A DNA stretch of 64,000 nt, taken from positions 310,001-374,000 of the forward strand of contig JAPWGK010000004.1 in NCBI GenBank assembly GCA_029641185.1, written 5' to 3'. Numbering within the stretch: position 1 is the first letter of the stretch; every line of letters begins with the position of its first letter. The DNA comes from Pseudofabraea citricarpa (taxonomy: Eukaryota; Ascomycota; Leotiomycetes; Helotiales; Dermateaceae). The notes beneath the pieces are model-generated. The model saw only the letters and a program-made list of their open reading frames with translations, was not told the origin of the DNA and did not search any database. This document shows, piece by piece, positions 15,817 through 22,816 of the stretch. Position numbers and translations under genes: made by a program.

Positions 15817-16912
15817 TCAAACCACAAGACCCAAACTCTGGACTTCCACGACAACATTCTCTTTCCCTTTCGATTTCTTTGACTCCTTCTCAATTGCATG
15901 CTGCGCATAAACGGCACTCCTAACCTTCTGCTGGTAGAAAGCAACCCCGTTCTCCTTGATAGGATTCAAGATGCCTTCGCCGTAAACACCCTTCTCCAGG
16001 TTGCTTTGTGCCTTTTCACATAACTCGAAGTCCTCAAGTGCAACTTGCCGCACAAATTTGAAGTACTCCTCAAACTCCTCGTCGGTACCAGCATGATAGT
16101 AGTCGAACTCCATACGTGAGATACCTGGAACCGTGGATGGTAGAGTACGGAAGGATGACATACCGCCTCCGTACACATTGAGGGTGCAGATGGGGAAAAA
16201 ATACAAGAATAAACCATCGTTGGGCTTGGTGGGATCGGCAATGTGTTGACTGAAATTTGCATGGTTGGTCACGCTGTAGAAAGTCGGTGGGTAGTATTTA
16301 GAGAAGGTCGGATGGGTGTATTGGCAGTGTAGACATTCTTGAAATCCATCAATCCTACAAGGTCAGCGGATACTGTTGGGGGTAGCACATGACGTACATA
16401 GTTTTCCAGTTGAATTTGCCCGAGTAAGAGATACTGCGTCGGTGAGGTAGCTTAGTGAAATCAACCGTATTGGTTAGTTCTTCCAGACCGACAAAGAACT
16501 CCTCAAAACATGGTGTATCGAGAGATAGTGTAGCAAAGAGGAGACCACTTGGGGTCAAGTGACTTCGAATATCGACCGACTGGTTTCATTAATGCAAAGA
16601 TTCCCATTGGATTGTTTGCATACCTCATCTTCAGCATATACAACTATCCCGTCCTTGCTTACGCCTTTTGACTCCGGTGCCTTGTTCTCGACAACAATTT
16701 TGACTTGGGCGATCTCAAAGATGACAGGCTCCGATCTTTTCTGGAACCGAGTAACTGGGCCCAGGAGATGCCACGACTGAGATTTTTCATCAACGAGAGG
16801 CGCTTTTGGGCTGGTACAATGCGTTTACCTTCAAGAAGACCGCTCTTCGTTCCAACTGATATAATGCTGGGCTGCAGAACCATGAAGCTGGTAGGGTTCG
16901 GGTGAGCTCCAT
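15817..16912 (-). CDS. Rieske-type oxygenase alpha-subunit catalytic domain lacking the [2Fe-2S] ligands
   Basis: Four exons: 16912-16829, 16776-16624, 16579-16398 and 16354-15817, coding 318 aa; the frame closes exactly. The N-terminus (TLPASW, then LERRAVF) and LLGPVTRFQK match fungal choline-monooxygenase-like Rieske oxygenases. After FEIAQVKIVV the sequence jumps to KAPESKGV, which normally lies beyond the cluster, so both CxH and CxxH loops are missing. Exon 2 contains no cysteine. The catalytic half is intact: FNWKTM, then ECLHCQYTH with the two iron-binding histidines, and EDFELCEK with the third (Asp) ligand, then GILNP. Relatives are usually 400-450 aa. Without its own cluster it should need an external electron donor; the divergent neighbour at 17493 is an obvious candidate. 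The substrate is unknown. Confidence 0.85.
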
Positions 16913-17492
16913 ATTTTCTCTGACTTGGAAAGAAACCTGAGACTCGGGGAAATGCAGCTTATAAGGGCTGAACCTTGATAGCTCCAAGATGGGCCAAGAA
17001 AGGTTGGCCGTTAGCGAGGGGAAGATGATATGACCAAAAGTCGCTAGCCAAAAGAAGTCATCGTATCCTGTCCTTAAAATAAGCTGTATTCCCGAATCGT
17101 GGGGACGGACTTCAAAAACTTACGATGTGAATGGTGTAAATGGTGTGCAATCAATTGAGGGGCTTCTTCCAGGGTCCTGGGTATGCAGGCGTCTCACGAG
17201 ATCATGTTTGTCGACGATACAGACCTTGTGTACCCCGACATACGCCTCAATACTGGGCAGCCATGCGTACGGAATGCAGGAACACAACATCAGATAAAAT
17301 GGTCACTGGAAAGTCGAACCGAATCCGGATGTATTGTGGGCACAAGCATTTGACTGGCGGGCGGAAATCGCGGGCAAACTACTCTGACTCGACTCATTCT
17401 GGTGTCATTGTCCACCTTCCGTGAAGCTATTGATGATTTATAGAGTGTGTCACCCGCCAGTACCTGAGGACGGTCCTTCCCAAGTAACCAAG
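16913..17492. promoter_or_regulatory. Shared divergent promoter region of the Rieske pair
   Basis: These 580 bp separate the start codons of two opposite genes, so both promoters must lie here, and co-regulation is likely. Open frames in this stretch have no ATG in the right frame and no similarity. I could not identify a specific factor site with confidence. Confidence 0.5.
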
Positions 17493-18944
17493 ATGGCTAC
17501 TATCACTATCTACTCAGTTGGCATCATCGTCATCCTTTTCACGGCATACTTCTTTCCATCATTCCACATAAACAATGTGTTAAATGGAGTATATCATATC
17601 AAGCGCCGAGTGATTGGTAAAGATGCGCAAGAGATGGATCCAAACGATGGCGCATGGTCTGAATTAGCTTCGGAAAGCCTCCCCCAGTTCTCGTCGAACT
17701 GGTGGATAGACGACGATATCTTTCGGCTTGAGCGTCGAGCAATCTTTAGCAAGGCAAGTAACCATCGCCATCACCACCACCATCGCATATCTAATAGAGG
17801 CAGGAATGGTTGTTTGTCACCCATGCTTCACGTTTCCGTAAAGCAGGTGATTACCGTACTTTCGAGATTGCTGGGTTTTCATTTCTCCTCATTCTGGGAA
17901 AAGATAGGAAGATTCGAGCCTTCCATAATGTATGTCGTCATCGCGCCTATACTATCACCAAGAAAGAAAGTGGCAGTTCGACAGTTTTAGGATGTAGATA
18001 TCACGGATGGAGTTATGACACCAAAGGAAAGCTGGTCAAGGCACCTGAGTTTGACAAGGTCCGAGGATTTGACAAGGACTTGAATAGCTTGTGGGAAATC
18101 CGCGCCCAAGTCAAAAATTCCCTAGTTTTTGTCAACTTTGACGCCGGCGAAGAGCTACAAAGCTTGGATGCAGACAACTATAATGCGCTTGAATTATGGA
18201 AAGTTGGGGAAATGGAGTGGGCCACTGGTTGGCAGGTAAATGCTGCCTGTAATTGGAAGCTCGCAGGTAGGTCCACCGTTGATTTGGCCAGTTTACTGCT
18301 AACTCATGTAGCTGGAGAACTTTCTCTTGTCCATGAAGAGGATACCACAAAAACTATGTGGCAGTCGATAGTATCTCAATGGCAGGGCAGTACCATCAAA
18401 GAATTGAAGGTTTCTCCATCCGCGACTTTGCAACTTCTTCCTACCGGACAAATACTGAGTATCAGAGTCCTTCCACAATCTGCATTTGCAACTACCATCC
18501 AGTGCGACGTGTACGCCAAAACAGCCAAAAGCACCAAGTCGATTCAGAAAGAACGCCAACTCTGCAAGGAAAACATGCAACTAAGAATCAAAGAGCTTGA
18601 ACGCAAACAACAGGAGATCCTCGCTGGAGAAGACGTGTTTGCGAGAGGTAGGCCAACCGATTATACAAGGGCATTGCAGTTGACGTATTGTAGCTCCTCA
18701 GGACGAATTCAGTAGACTCCTAAAGGCGCATCTTAAGGCGGAAACGCATTTAGGAACCGAGATCCAGCCTGCTGCGAGAAAACAGAGCTTTACAAAAGAT
18801 GGAAAGGCCGACGATGATCGTGCGTATCCATATTTTTTCCGCCGATGCTTGCAAGACCTTGGATGCTAATAGTGAACAGTCTGTGCCGAGCTTGAAAGTG
18901 ACTTGGTGTGCAAGGCCAACAAAAACGGCTTACTAGAATGGTAA
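17493..18944 (+). CDS. Membrane-anchored Rieske [2Fe-2S] protein lacking the catalytic iron motif
   Basis: Five exons: 17493-17753, 17804-18266, 18312-18647, 18694-18819 and 18880-18944, coding 416 aa. Intron 1 has a GC donor (AAG|GCAAGT). A hydrophobic helix (residues about 4-22) should anchor it to a membrane. The Rieske centre is complete: Cys131-x-His133, 17 residues, then Cys151-x-x-His154 in CRYHGW, followed by VKAPEF. The protein then reaches NWKLA, where a catalytic domain would continue with an E..HC...H iron site, but here it passes directly to a region resembling only the late part of that domain (LLPTGQILSIRVLPQSA). A charged, probably coiled-coil tail follows (about 330-365). It likely handles electron transfer rather than oxygen chemistry. 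It is divergent from the Rieske-less oxygenase at 15817-16912. Such N-terminal and tail structure may define a fungal subfamily. Confidence 0.85.
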
Positions 18945-19008: not shown

Positions 19009-19058
19009 ATGGTTAAGGTGGTGGTAGAGGTGGTTGAGGTGGTTGAGGTGGTTGAGGC
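19009..19058. repeat. GGTTGAGGT-type short tandem repeat
   Basis: About 50 bp of GGTGGTAGAGGTGGTTGAGG units with a 9-bp period. It lies in the spacer after the Rieske gene, with no coding role seen. Confidence 0.7.
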
Positions 19059-20980: not shown

Positions 20981-22816
20981 ATGGATACCTTAGAGAAGGA
21001 AGAGAACTCCATCAGGCCGGCGGCCTCTCAACGGGTCGCCTCGACGGAAACAATCGACAGAAATGTAAAGAACCAGATGACCAAGGATGAGCATCATCTA
21101 GCCACTCTCGGATACAAGCAAGAGTTCTTTCGAAGTCTAGGTCTTTTTGAGAACTGGTAATTCCCAATGATGTAATATATCAACGGTTGCTGATATTACT
21201 AGGGCCGCTACATTTACTGTGAGCGATATCCATTTGCCATCATGGGGCTGACTGACTCCAGCTAGTCGATGAATTTTGTATCTGGTATCCCTGTTTTATT
21301 TGGCTTTGTCATGTACACTGGTGGCCCGACTGCTGCATTTGCAAATTGGACTATGGTTGGTTTTCTATCCCTAGTCGTTAGCTTTTCGATGTCGGAGATT
21401 GCTGCTGCTCTACCTACTGCCGGAGGTATATATTACTGGGCGTATCGATTGGGTGGCCCTGACTGGGGGTAAGAAATATGTTCAGTGAATTGAGGGGTTG
21501 GCTAATGTCGTCAGTCCTTTTCTTGCCTGGATGACAGGTTGGTGGAACTGGGCAGGTTGGGTAAGTTCCATCCCAATTTGACGTACGAGTTGCTAAGTGT
21601 AATGCAGGTTACCGTAGTTCCTGGAGTTCAACAAGGATCAACCAACTTTTTAATATCTGCCCTTGAGATCAACTACCCCAATGCGACAATTCTATCCCAG
21701 GGTTGGTTTGCCTGGCTCCTCACATCTCTTGGAATGTTGTTCGCCATGGCACCGAACATTATCAACCAAAAAGTGCTGAAATGGTACTTTAGATTTGCTA
21801 TCGTCATATTTCATCTTCTACTCGTACTCTACTGGATCTGGTTTCCCATCAAGGCCCATCAAAAGGGAGGCTTTCAAAGTGGTTCTGGGGTTTTCAAGCA
21901 TTTTTACAACGGAATTAACACTGGCGAAAACAAAGAAGCAAGTGACGCATATTGCTGGATCATCTCGGTGTTATTCGGAGCTTGGGTATTTTATGGCTAT
22001 GATGCAAGTGTTCATCTTGCCGAAGAAACACAAGACGCCAGCGAGGTCGTTGCGAAAGGGATGTGGATGTCAACCCTTTCGTCCTGGGTTATGTCTGTTC
22101 CAACCCTGATCCTAATACTTTTTTGTCTTCAGGATTTTGAAGGTATCATTAGCGGATCATATGCGAATAATTGGGCTGTCTATCTGGTCCAGCTGGTCGG
22201 GCCTAGAGGCGCAACAGCAATCCTTGCTCTGCTCTGGGTCGATTCTACGTGTGCTACAGCGTCTTGCTTCATGTCAGCACAGAGAGTCACATATGCCATC
22301 TCGCGAGATAATATTCTTCCAGGCTCCAAGTACTTTCGTCGCCTCTCCAAAAGTAGTCATATGCCAGTCAATGCAGCCTTGCTTGTATGTGCCATCTCTA
22401 TATCAATAACAACAGCAGTCATCGGCTCTGCAGTGGCCTTCTCTGCCATTACTGCTGCGGCGACCATCGCAACAAACGTATCATACCTCTTCCCCATTCT
22501 CGCTCGTCAAACAGTCGGTCGTAATAGCTTCCAACCCGCAAGGTGGAACTTGGGGAAATGGTCGCTTCCATGTGCGGTTATTGCAACGCTATATATCTCT
22601 TTCCTCGTCGTCGTTCTTTTACTTCCTCAACTATACCCAGTTACTGCTCAGACTCTGAATTATGCGCCCATAATGATCGGAGCTATCACTGTCATTAGTG
22701 TTGTGGGTTGGTGGCTGCCTTTTGCCCTTGGTGGAAGGCATTGGTTTCGAGGCCCCCAGAGAACGATCTCGGTTGAGGAGGTTGCTGGTGCAAGGGTTGT
22801 TAATGATGAGATGTAG
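20981..22816 (+). CDS. APC-superfamily amino acid/choline/GABA permease
   Basis: Five exons: 20981-21156, 21203-21218 (only 16 nt), 21266-21468, 21515-21560 and 21608-22816, coding 549 aa; introns are 46-47 nt. After a polar N-terminus (about 60 aa) comes ENWAATF, then GIPVLFGF and the family signature MYTGGP in the first helix region, followed by EIAAALPTAGGIYYW and GWWNWAGW. About 12 membrane helices are expected. These features match the fungal amino-acid/choline transporter group that includes yeast Hnm1 (choline) and Uga4 (GABA). It is probably a plasma-membrane or vacuolar proton symporter. The substrate cannot be read from sequence. The tiny second exon is needed to keep frame through the conserved first helix. 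Confidence 0.9.

Follow-up and report, generated by a model that had tools for sequence, protein, structure and literature searches.

The best PDB match of both protein families described here is the carnitine monooxygenase CntA (chains 6y8j/6y9c; 2.1e-16 for the profile of the minus-type family and 1.6e-41 for that of the plus-type family), a homotrimer in which, as described in PMC7948474, both centres are carried by one chain, whereas the fungal pair has them in two gene products. According to the same source, the cluster-iron distance in CntA is 44 Å within a chain and 12.2 Å between chains, Glu205 forms the bridge and every Glu205 mutant made was inactive, and Tyr203 holds the quaternary ammonium group, its Phe mutant working too (PMC7948474). 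The bacterial caffeine N7-demethylase NdmC/NdmD/NdmE is built in another way, since, as set out in PMC4408171, its oxygenase chain NdmC has no Rieske cluster and borrows one that another polypeptide carries fused to a reductase, with a GST-like protein as a further requirement. Closer to hand are the fungal CMO-like oxygenases, which carry both centres in one chain, and of which the accessible sections of a 2018 study only name the two-domain ones (PMC6157903). The first-pass annotation had put forward that no fungal equivalent of a split Rieske oxygenase is described, and indeed no description of the pair was found in open-access PMC literature (subscription journals lie outside this scope). 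Li et al. are said to have described, in 2021, non-heme iron enzymes from fungal meroterpenoid pathways that act as heterodimers, one of the two partners being no longer catalytic. Those enzymes belong to another superfamily and have no Rieske cluster.

The window, i.e. the whole stretch of 64,000 nucleotides analysed (C34:310001-374000), is part of a 44.0-Mb genome assembled in 43 contigs, which judged by its proteins stands close to Phlyctema vagabunda and other Helotiales. It presents two divergent genes, whose features are collected in Table 1. Open, clean spliced models were obtained for both at 15817-18944, and they reproduce the spacing of 580 bp given by the first-pass annotation. The introns of the minus gene measure 52, 44 and 43 bp, each GT-AG, and those of the plus gene 50, 45, 46 and 60 bp, the first of them (17754-17803) being GC-AG (AAG|GCAAGT). 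Introns of 43-60 bp are too short to conceal an exon with the Rieske or His-His motif, and in a six-frame search of the genome the minus strand of this locus was free of Rieske matches. Hence, the hidden exon with the missing motifs, which the first-pass annotation had left as a possibility for either gene, is ruled out. Genome searches yielded one copy each of the minus gene and the plus gene, and five PF00355 matches, the sole other oxygenase-type one being canonical. Elsewhere in the genome, another oxygenase catalytic half (L065, ECYHCATGH) lies on the minus strand at G000:C10:1057291-1057782, with a downstream frame that ends MEW. No C-x-H-R/K motif was found within about 3.5 kb upstream of it, and this half may be a broken copy or have an unrecognised distant exon.

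Table 1. Features of the divergent gene pair, in positions of the window.
Feature	Position	Strand	Detail
Minus gene, putative catalytic-only subunit (minus type, family A)	15817..16912	-	spliced model, 318 aa
Minus-gene exons	16912-16829, 16776-16624, 16579-16398, 16354-15817	-	four exons, 318 codons
Rieske-domain remnant, FEIAQ to SVD	16571..16719	-	alignment with canonical relatives
ECLHCQYTH: bridging Glu146, iron ligands His149 and His154	16312..16338	-	E/H/H in 121/121 family A including window
Third iron ligand Asp248 of EDFELCEK	16030..16032	-	D in 121/121 family A including window
Intergenic region common to both genes	16913..17492	.	580 bp between the two ATGs
Plus gene, putative Rieske-only subunit (plus type, family B)	17493..18944	+	spliced model, 416 aa
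Plus-gene exons	17493-17753, 17804-18266, 18312-18647, 18694-18819, 18880-18944	+	five exons, 416 codons
Hydrophobic N-terminal segment, putative membrane anchor	17502..17564 (approximate bounds)	+	Kyte-Doolittle 2.05
Rieske [2Fe-2S] ligands Cys131, His133, Cys151, His154, CRH-x17-CRYH	17933..18004	+	C/H/C/H in 105/105 family B including window
Degenerate catalytic-domain half without iron ligands	18251..18932	+	NWKLA to near C terminus; three introns within
C-terminal Leu-Glu-Trp, fits CIA targeting (TCR) tripeptide	18933..18941	+	plus protein ends LEW

The minus protein was originally read as having the mononuclear-iron ligands and no [2Fe-2S] ligands, and the spliced model bears this out: ECLHCQYTH and EDFELCEK are present, CxH/CxxH is absent, and Pfam assigns Ring_hydroxyl_A alone. 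What is left of its Rieske domain is a remnant split by the 44-bp intron (16623-16580). Between the start of FEIAQ and the start of IRSHLTP there are 35 residues, against 79 in the protein of the canonical gene on contig C7, so that the minus protein is short of about 44 residues of the cluster-binding part, at the place where canonical relatives have their CxH/CxxH loops.

Concerning the plus protein, the intact Rieske centre without a His-His motif that had been proposed is likewise found, with CRH-x17-CRYH present and ECxHx4H absent. Down to its final residue, the catalytic half can be aligned with canonical oxygenases, the iron ligands being lost. The closest relative (P0121 from Phlyctema vagabunda, 76% identity) has a Rieske match in Pfam and no Ring_hydroxyl_A match; 923 plasmid records match P0121 weakly, the five best listed being 26% identical and none of these covering 80%. 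Among 20 family B proteins scanned with Pfam, Rieske is present in 20/20 and a weak Ring_hydroxyl_A match (E<=1) in 7, and the nine families listed include no reductase in any of the 20. The NdmC/NdmD precedent, invoked by the first-pass annotation, therefore holds as to mechanism, a clusterless chain borrowing a cluster as described in PMC4408171, and not as to build, since the fungal donor would be a catalytically dead paralogue of oxygenases, in which no reductase domain came to light; the comparison with NdmC is by description.

A search of about 5.8 billion proteins (E <= 1e-3; database clustered at 90%) returned 358 relatives of the minus protein (family A) and 2599 of the plus protein (family B), while the 1681 canonical relatives of this genome's C7 gene constitute family C; the best 120 of each were used. 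Databases name such proteins, for example, 'choline monooxygenase, chloroplastic'. For the best 120 of 358 A relatives E is <=5.5e-111, the top three being 81-84% identical to the minus protein, and the named members belong to Leotiomycetes, Eurotiomycetes, Dothideomycetes and Sordariomycetes, and to Tuber. These 120 proteins show ECxHx4H in 120/120 and CxH...CxxH in 0/120; among the best 120 of 2599 B relatives CxH...CxxH occurs in 120/120 and ECxHx4H in 10, all of them merged A+B models (see below). Position by position, the Glu/His/His/Asp set is found in 121/121 aligned A proteins, window included, and unmerged plus-type proteins have Cys/His/Cys/His in 104/104 and the iron triad in 0/104, where the 105 proteins of the B count are these 104 plus that of the window, 16 models of >600 aa being left out. 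The iron-ligand columns of the 105 hold a single His in one protein, both His in 0 and the triad in 0. Asp or Glu stands in the third-ligand column in 25/105, and a loose [DE]xxHx4-5H string follows the Rieske motif in 3/104 unmerged B proteins (P0139, P0141, P0168). Each ligand is present in 118-120 of the 120 canonical C proteins (best 120 of 1681). The usual alpha-subunit arrangement of both centres in one chain is thus seen in neither A nor B singly, and A plus B make up one set. Because the same pattern recurs in 120/120 A and 104/104 B relatives, the complementary loss of ligands is not due to chance.

Conservation along the chains follows the same division. Column identity in family A is 0.74 for the catalytic part vs 0.42 for the Rieske remnant, and in family B 0.72 for the Rieske part vs 0.35 for the catalytic-like part, with 0.72 and 0.60 in canonical C; the part no longer needed by each family has relaxed, reciprocally in A and B. 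Both families are homologous to Rieske oxygenase alpha subunits along the chain, as derived from hhalign (A-C 9.5e-48 over 299 columns; B-C 3e-81 over 360 columns; A-B 4.6e-16 over 276 columns), and the fungal CMO-like oxygenases, such as that of the C7 gene, resemble B over the oxygenase part and A apart from the missing cluster part. Family A also shares with CntA/YeaW and the quaternary-amine oxygenases of group Va the bridging Glu, placed three residues ahead of the first iron His in 121/121, the His/His/Asp ligands and an aromatic residue at the place of CntA Y203, where the best 120 of 358 relatives have 102 Tyr and 18 Phe.

Two features outside the metal centres also set the families apart. 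A hydrophobic N terminus (at least 1.6 on the Kyte-Doolittle scale) is present in 68/81 B proteins scored (of 104 unmerged), vs 0/95 in A and 3/116 in C; the remaining 13/81 B proteins have no clear one, and some of these may be faulty models. Basic residues follow the hydrophobic segment in the plus protein of the window, and by the positive-inside rule such a basic flank points to the cytosolic side, so the cluster of the plus protein would lie on the cytosolic side of the membrane. At the other end, terminal Trp is found in 90/120 B and 88/120 C proteins (the latter among the best 120 of 1681, the CMO-like oxygenases sharing this tail with B), vs 1/120 in A (best 120 per fungal family) and 0/49 in bacterial relatives (49 of 50 loci with a usable frame). 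The strict tail matches in 52/120 B, 25/120 C and 0/120 A (best 120 per family); some of the 30/120 listed B proteins without terminal Trp may be faulty models. Another CIA-type tail, IDW, ends the nitrite-reductase-like Rieske protein of locus L012 (G000:C43:644041-644301). The C-terminal tripeptide [LIM]-[DES]-[WF] is described as recruiting cytosolic Fe-S assembly, with choline monooxygenase named among the tail-bearing proteins (Marquez et al., PMC10623007). The cluster and the Trp tail seem to have disappeared from family A together, and B alone looks cluster-loaded, which is a separate kind of support for the split.

The two genes travel together. The lists of the best 120 share 23 contigs for A-B vs 2 for A-C and 1 for B-C, contigs of equal length being taken as identical and 119 of 120 C values used. 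Lists of this size may miss species that carry just one of the two genes. The same species stands on both sides in 22 of the 23, the other being a metagenome contig (4705 bp); two of the A-B contigs are short (4.7 and 11.6 kb), and one of the two A-C contigs looks coincidental. In five A/B pairs the locus tags follow directly on each other (AJ80_06583/06584, LTR36_004150/004149, AnigIFM50267_003062/003061, M1818_000107/000108 and VTN77DRAFT_5422/5421), the pair of Aspergillus niger strain IFM 50267 being adjacent by this token. Identity to the window genes over the 23 linked pairs is 56-88% for A and 33-77% for B; A and B distances are correlated (r 0.74 over 24 pairs), as species history alone would also yield. 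There are, furthermore, 14 merged models of 644-716 aa (Aspergillus, Penicillium, Lophiotrema) with the A part followed by the B part, 10 with ECxHx4H and four further ones without that stretch. Most of them look like joined neighbour genes and not true fusions, because the linker contains a Met in 12/14 and a hydrophobic stretch (at least 1.6) lies between the parts in 10/14. Both genes are then on one strand with the minus type first, i.e. the pair is tandem in those species. Hence, divergent orientation is not a general feature of the pair: of the expectation that the two genes would stay linked and divergent, linkage stands across many Pezizomycotina, in which relatives of both genes are widespread, and divergence does not. 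Two plus-type models of Aspergillus niger (P0212 and P0231; 631 and 637 aa) also carry PF04117 (Mpv17/PMP22 family) and are probably merged models as well.

To place the families, a tree was built from 12 of the 120 proteins in each of A and B, 16 of the 120 in C and 12 of the 49 bacterial ones, together with three proteins of this genome. A and B each form one clade (100/100), and B groups with canonical C (100/98) with A outside. Constraining A and B together costs 13.9 log units (AU p 0.015) in an alignment where A has no Rieske columns and the catalytic columns of B are decayed; a catalytic-only tree has long branches. An origin of A and B as simple tandem duplicates, or sisters, is thus unsupported and weakly rejected, and the pair may derive from two older paralogues instead of one tandem duplication.

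A Pfam scan of nine ORFs showed no reductase adjoining the pair. Its immediate neighbours are one ORF that had no match and one for a PQ-loop protein, and a ferric-reductase ORF about 7 kb away is not an obvious partner. An amino-acid permease family ORF (21506-22816, plus strand) lies 2.6 kb downstream of the pair, and a GGTGGTTGA tandem repeat of 4.2 copies (19020-19057) is found just downstream of the plus gene. Rfam gave no match in the window. Base composition changes along it, GC being 11-18% over the 22 kb from 42000 to 64000 vs 41-49% in most of the first 40 kb, where one 2-kb stretch is at 35%; the former has the look of a repeat block that is rich in AT and may have been eroded by mutation.

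Taken together, we give a probability of roughly three in four to the reading that A and B are obligate partner subunits of one membrane-anchored split Rieske oxygenase, with B-to-A electron transfer and a quaternary-ammonium-type substrate; this supports the hetero-oligomer suggested by the first-pass annotation. Since A keeps the bridging Glu and the iron without a cluster, its electrons most probably come from a cluster carried by a different chain, with B as the neighbour offering one. The physical complex, the electron path, the substrate class, the membrane side and the use of the tail that we infer from the sequences would be as follows. B would be an oxygenase paralogue, anchored in a membrane, which retained the [2Fe-2S] cluster and lost its own iron site, the cluster being loaded by cytosolic Fe-S assembly via the C-terminal Trp tail. 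A would have retained the iron site at which O2 is activated, together with the bridging Glu and with the aromatic residue that grips a quaternary ammonium group in CntA, and lost the cluster and the tail. Once reduced by a reductase, B would pass the electron across the B-to-A interface via the bridging Glu, as between identical CntA subunits, and A would oxidise a quaternary-ammonium-type substrate. The reductase and the stoichiometry are likewise predicted. A and B cannot take turns around a head-to-tail ring of three members, and the assembly to be expected is therefore an AB dimer, a ring with an even number of subunits, or a trimer in which one interface is productive.

An electron donor other than B has to be considered, since A might be fed by another Rieske protein, for instance the canonical oxygenase or a soluble ferredoxin, with B a separate carrier or regulator and adjacency reflecting co-regulation only. 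At C7 the genome does encode a canonical oxygenase that has its Rieske centre, and the dead catalytic half of B evolves fast, as would suit such a separate role; canonical genes, however, are seldom found on the contigs of A or B (2 and 1 vs 23), and complementary loss in all listed A and B is hard to explain without mutual dependence, which makes this account unlikely. A mixed trimer in which B is mainly a scaffold for A, its decayed half being kept for that reason, and whose active form also contains a canonical subunit, would fit the homology of B to canonical oxygenases over the whole oxygenase part (the 360 columns given above). Against it, canonical genes are little linked to the pair; we consider it about half as probable as a different donor.

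Of all readings, we give least credit, a few chances in a hundred, to both genes being relics in decay, or wrongly modelled pieces of a single full-length oxygenase. In its favour, each gene has only half of the motifs normally present, and from about 42 kb on the window contains the GC-poor, perhaps eroded block. Frames and splice sites in the window are nevertheless intact, the same two types recur in 120 + 104 listed proteins with invariant ligands, and the 23 linked pairs retain the identities to the window genes quoted above; the relic or pseudogene reading was rejected on this conservation of ligands in both families.

Returning to A and B as partner subunits, a wider version can be proposed only tentatively, and we would bet against it at odds of nearly two to one: the pair could represent a Rieske oxygenase that is ancient among the filamentous ascomycetes, obligatorily requires both genes, is tethered to a membrane through its Rieske subunit and acts on a membrane-derived or membrane-delivered quaternary-ammonium substrate. 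Reciprocal loss in paralogues would then have turned a homo-oligomer into an obligate hetero-oligomer, whose assembly would depart from the three-fold rule that holds for Rieske oxygenases.

In CntA-type enzymes both centres are on one chain, hence the two roles are genetically inseparable. Here they are seemingly split over two genes, which can be deleted and mutated separately and co-expressed. With such a split pair, electron transfer between subunits could be tested directly, and so could the way in which a homo-oligomer turns into an obligate hetero-oligomer and the role of a widespread fungal enzyme; the apparent joint loss of cluster and Trp tail in family A would put the CIA targeting signal to a natural test.
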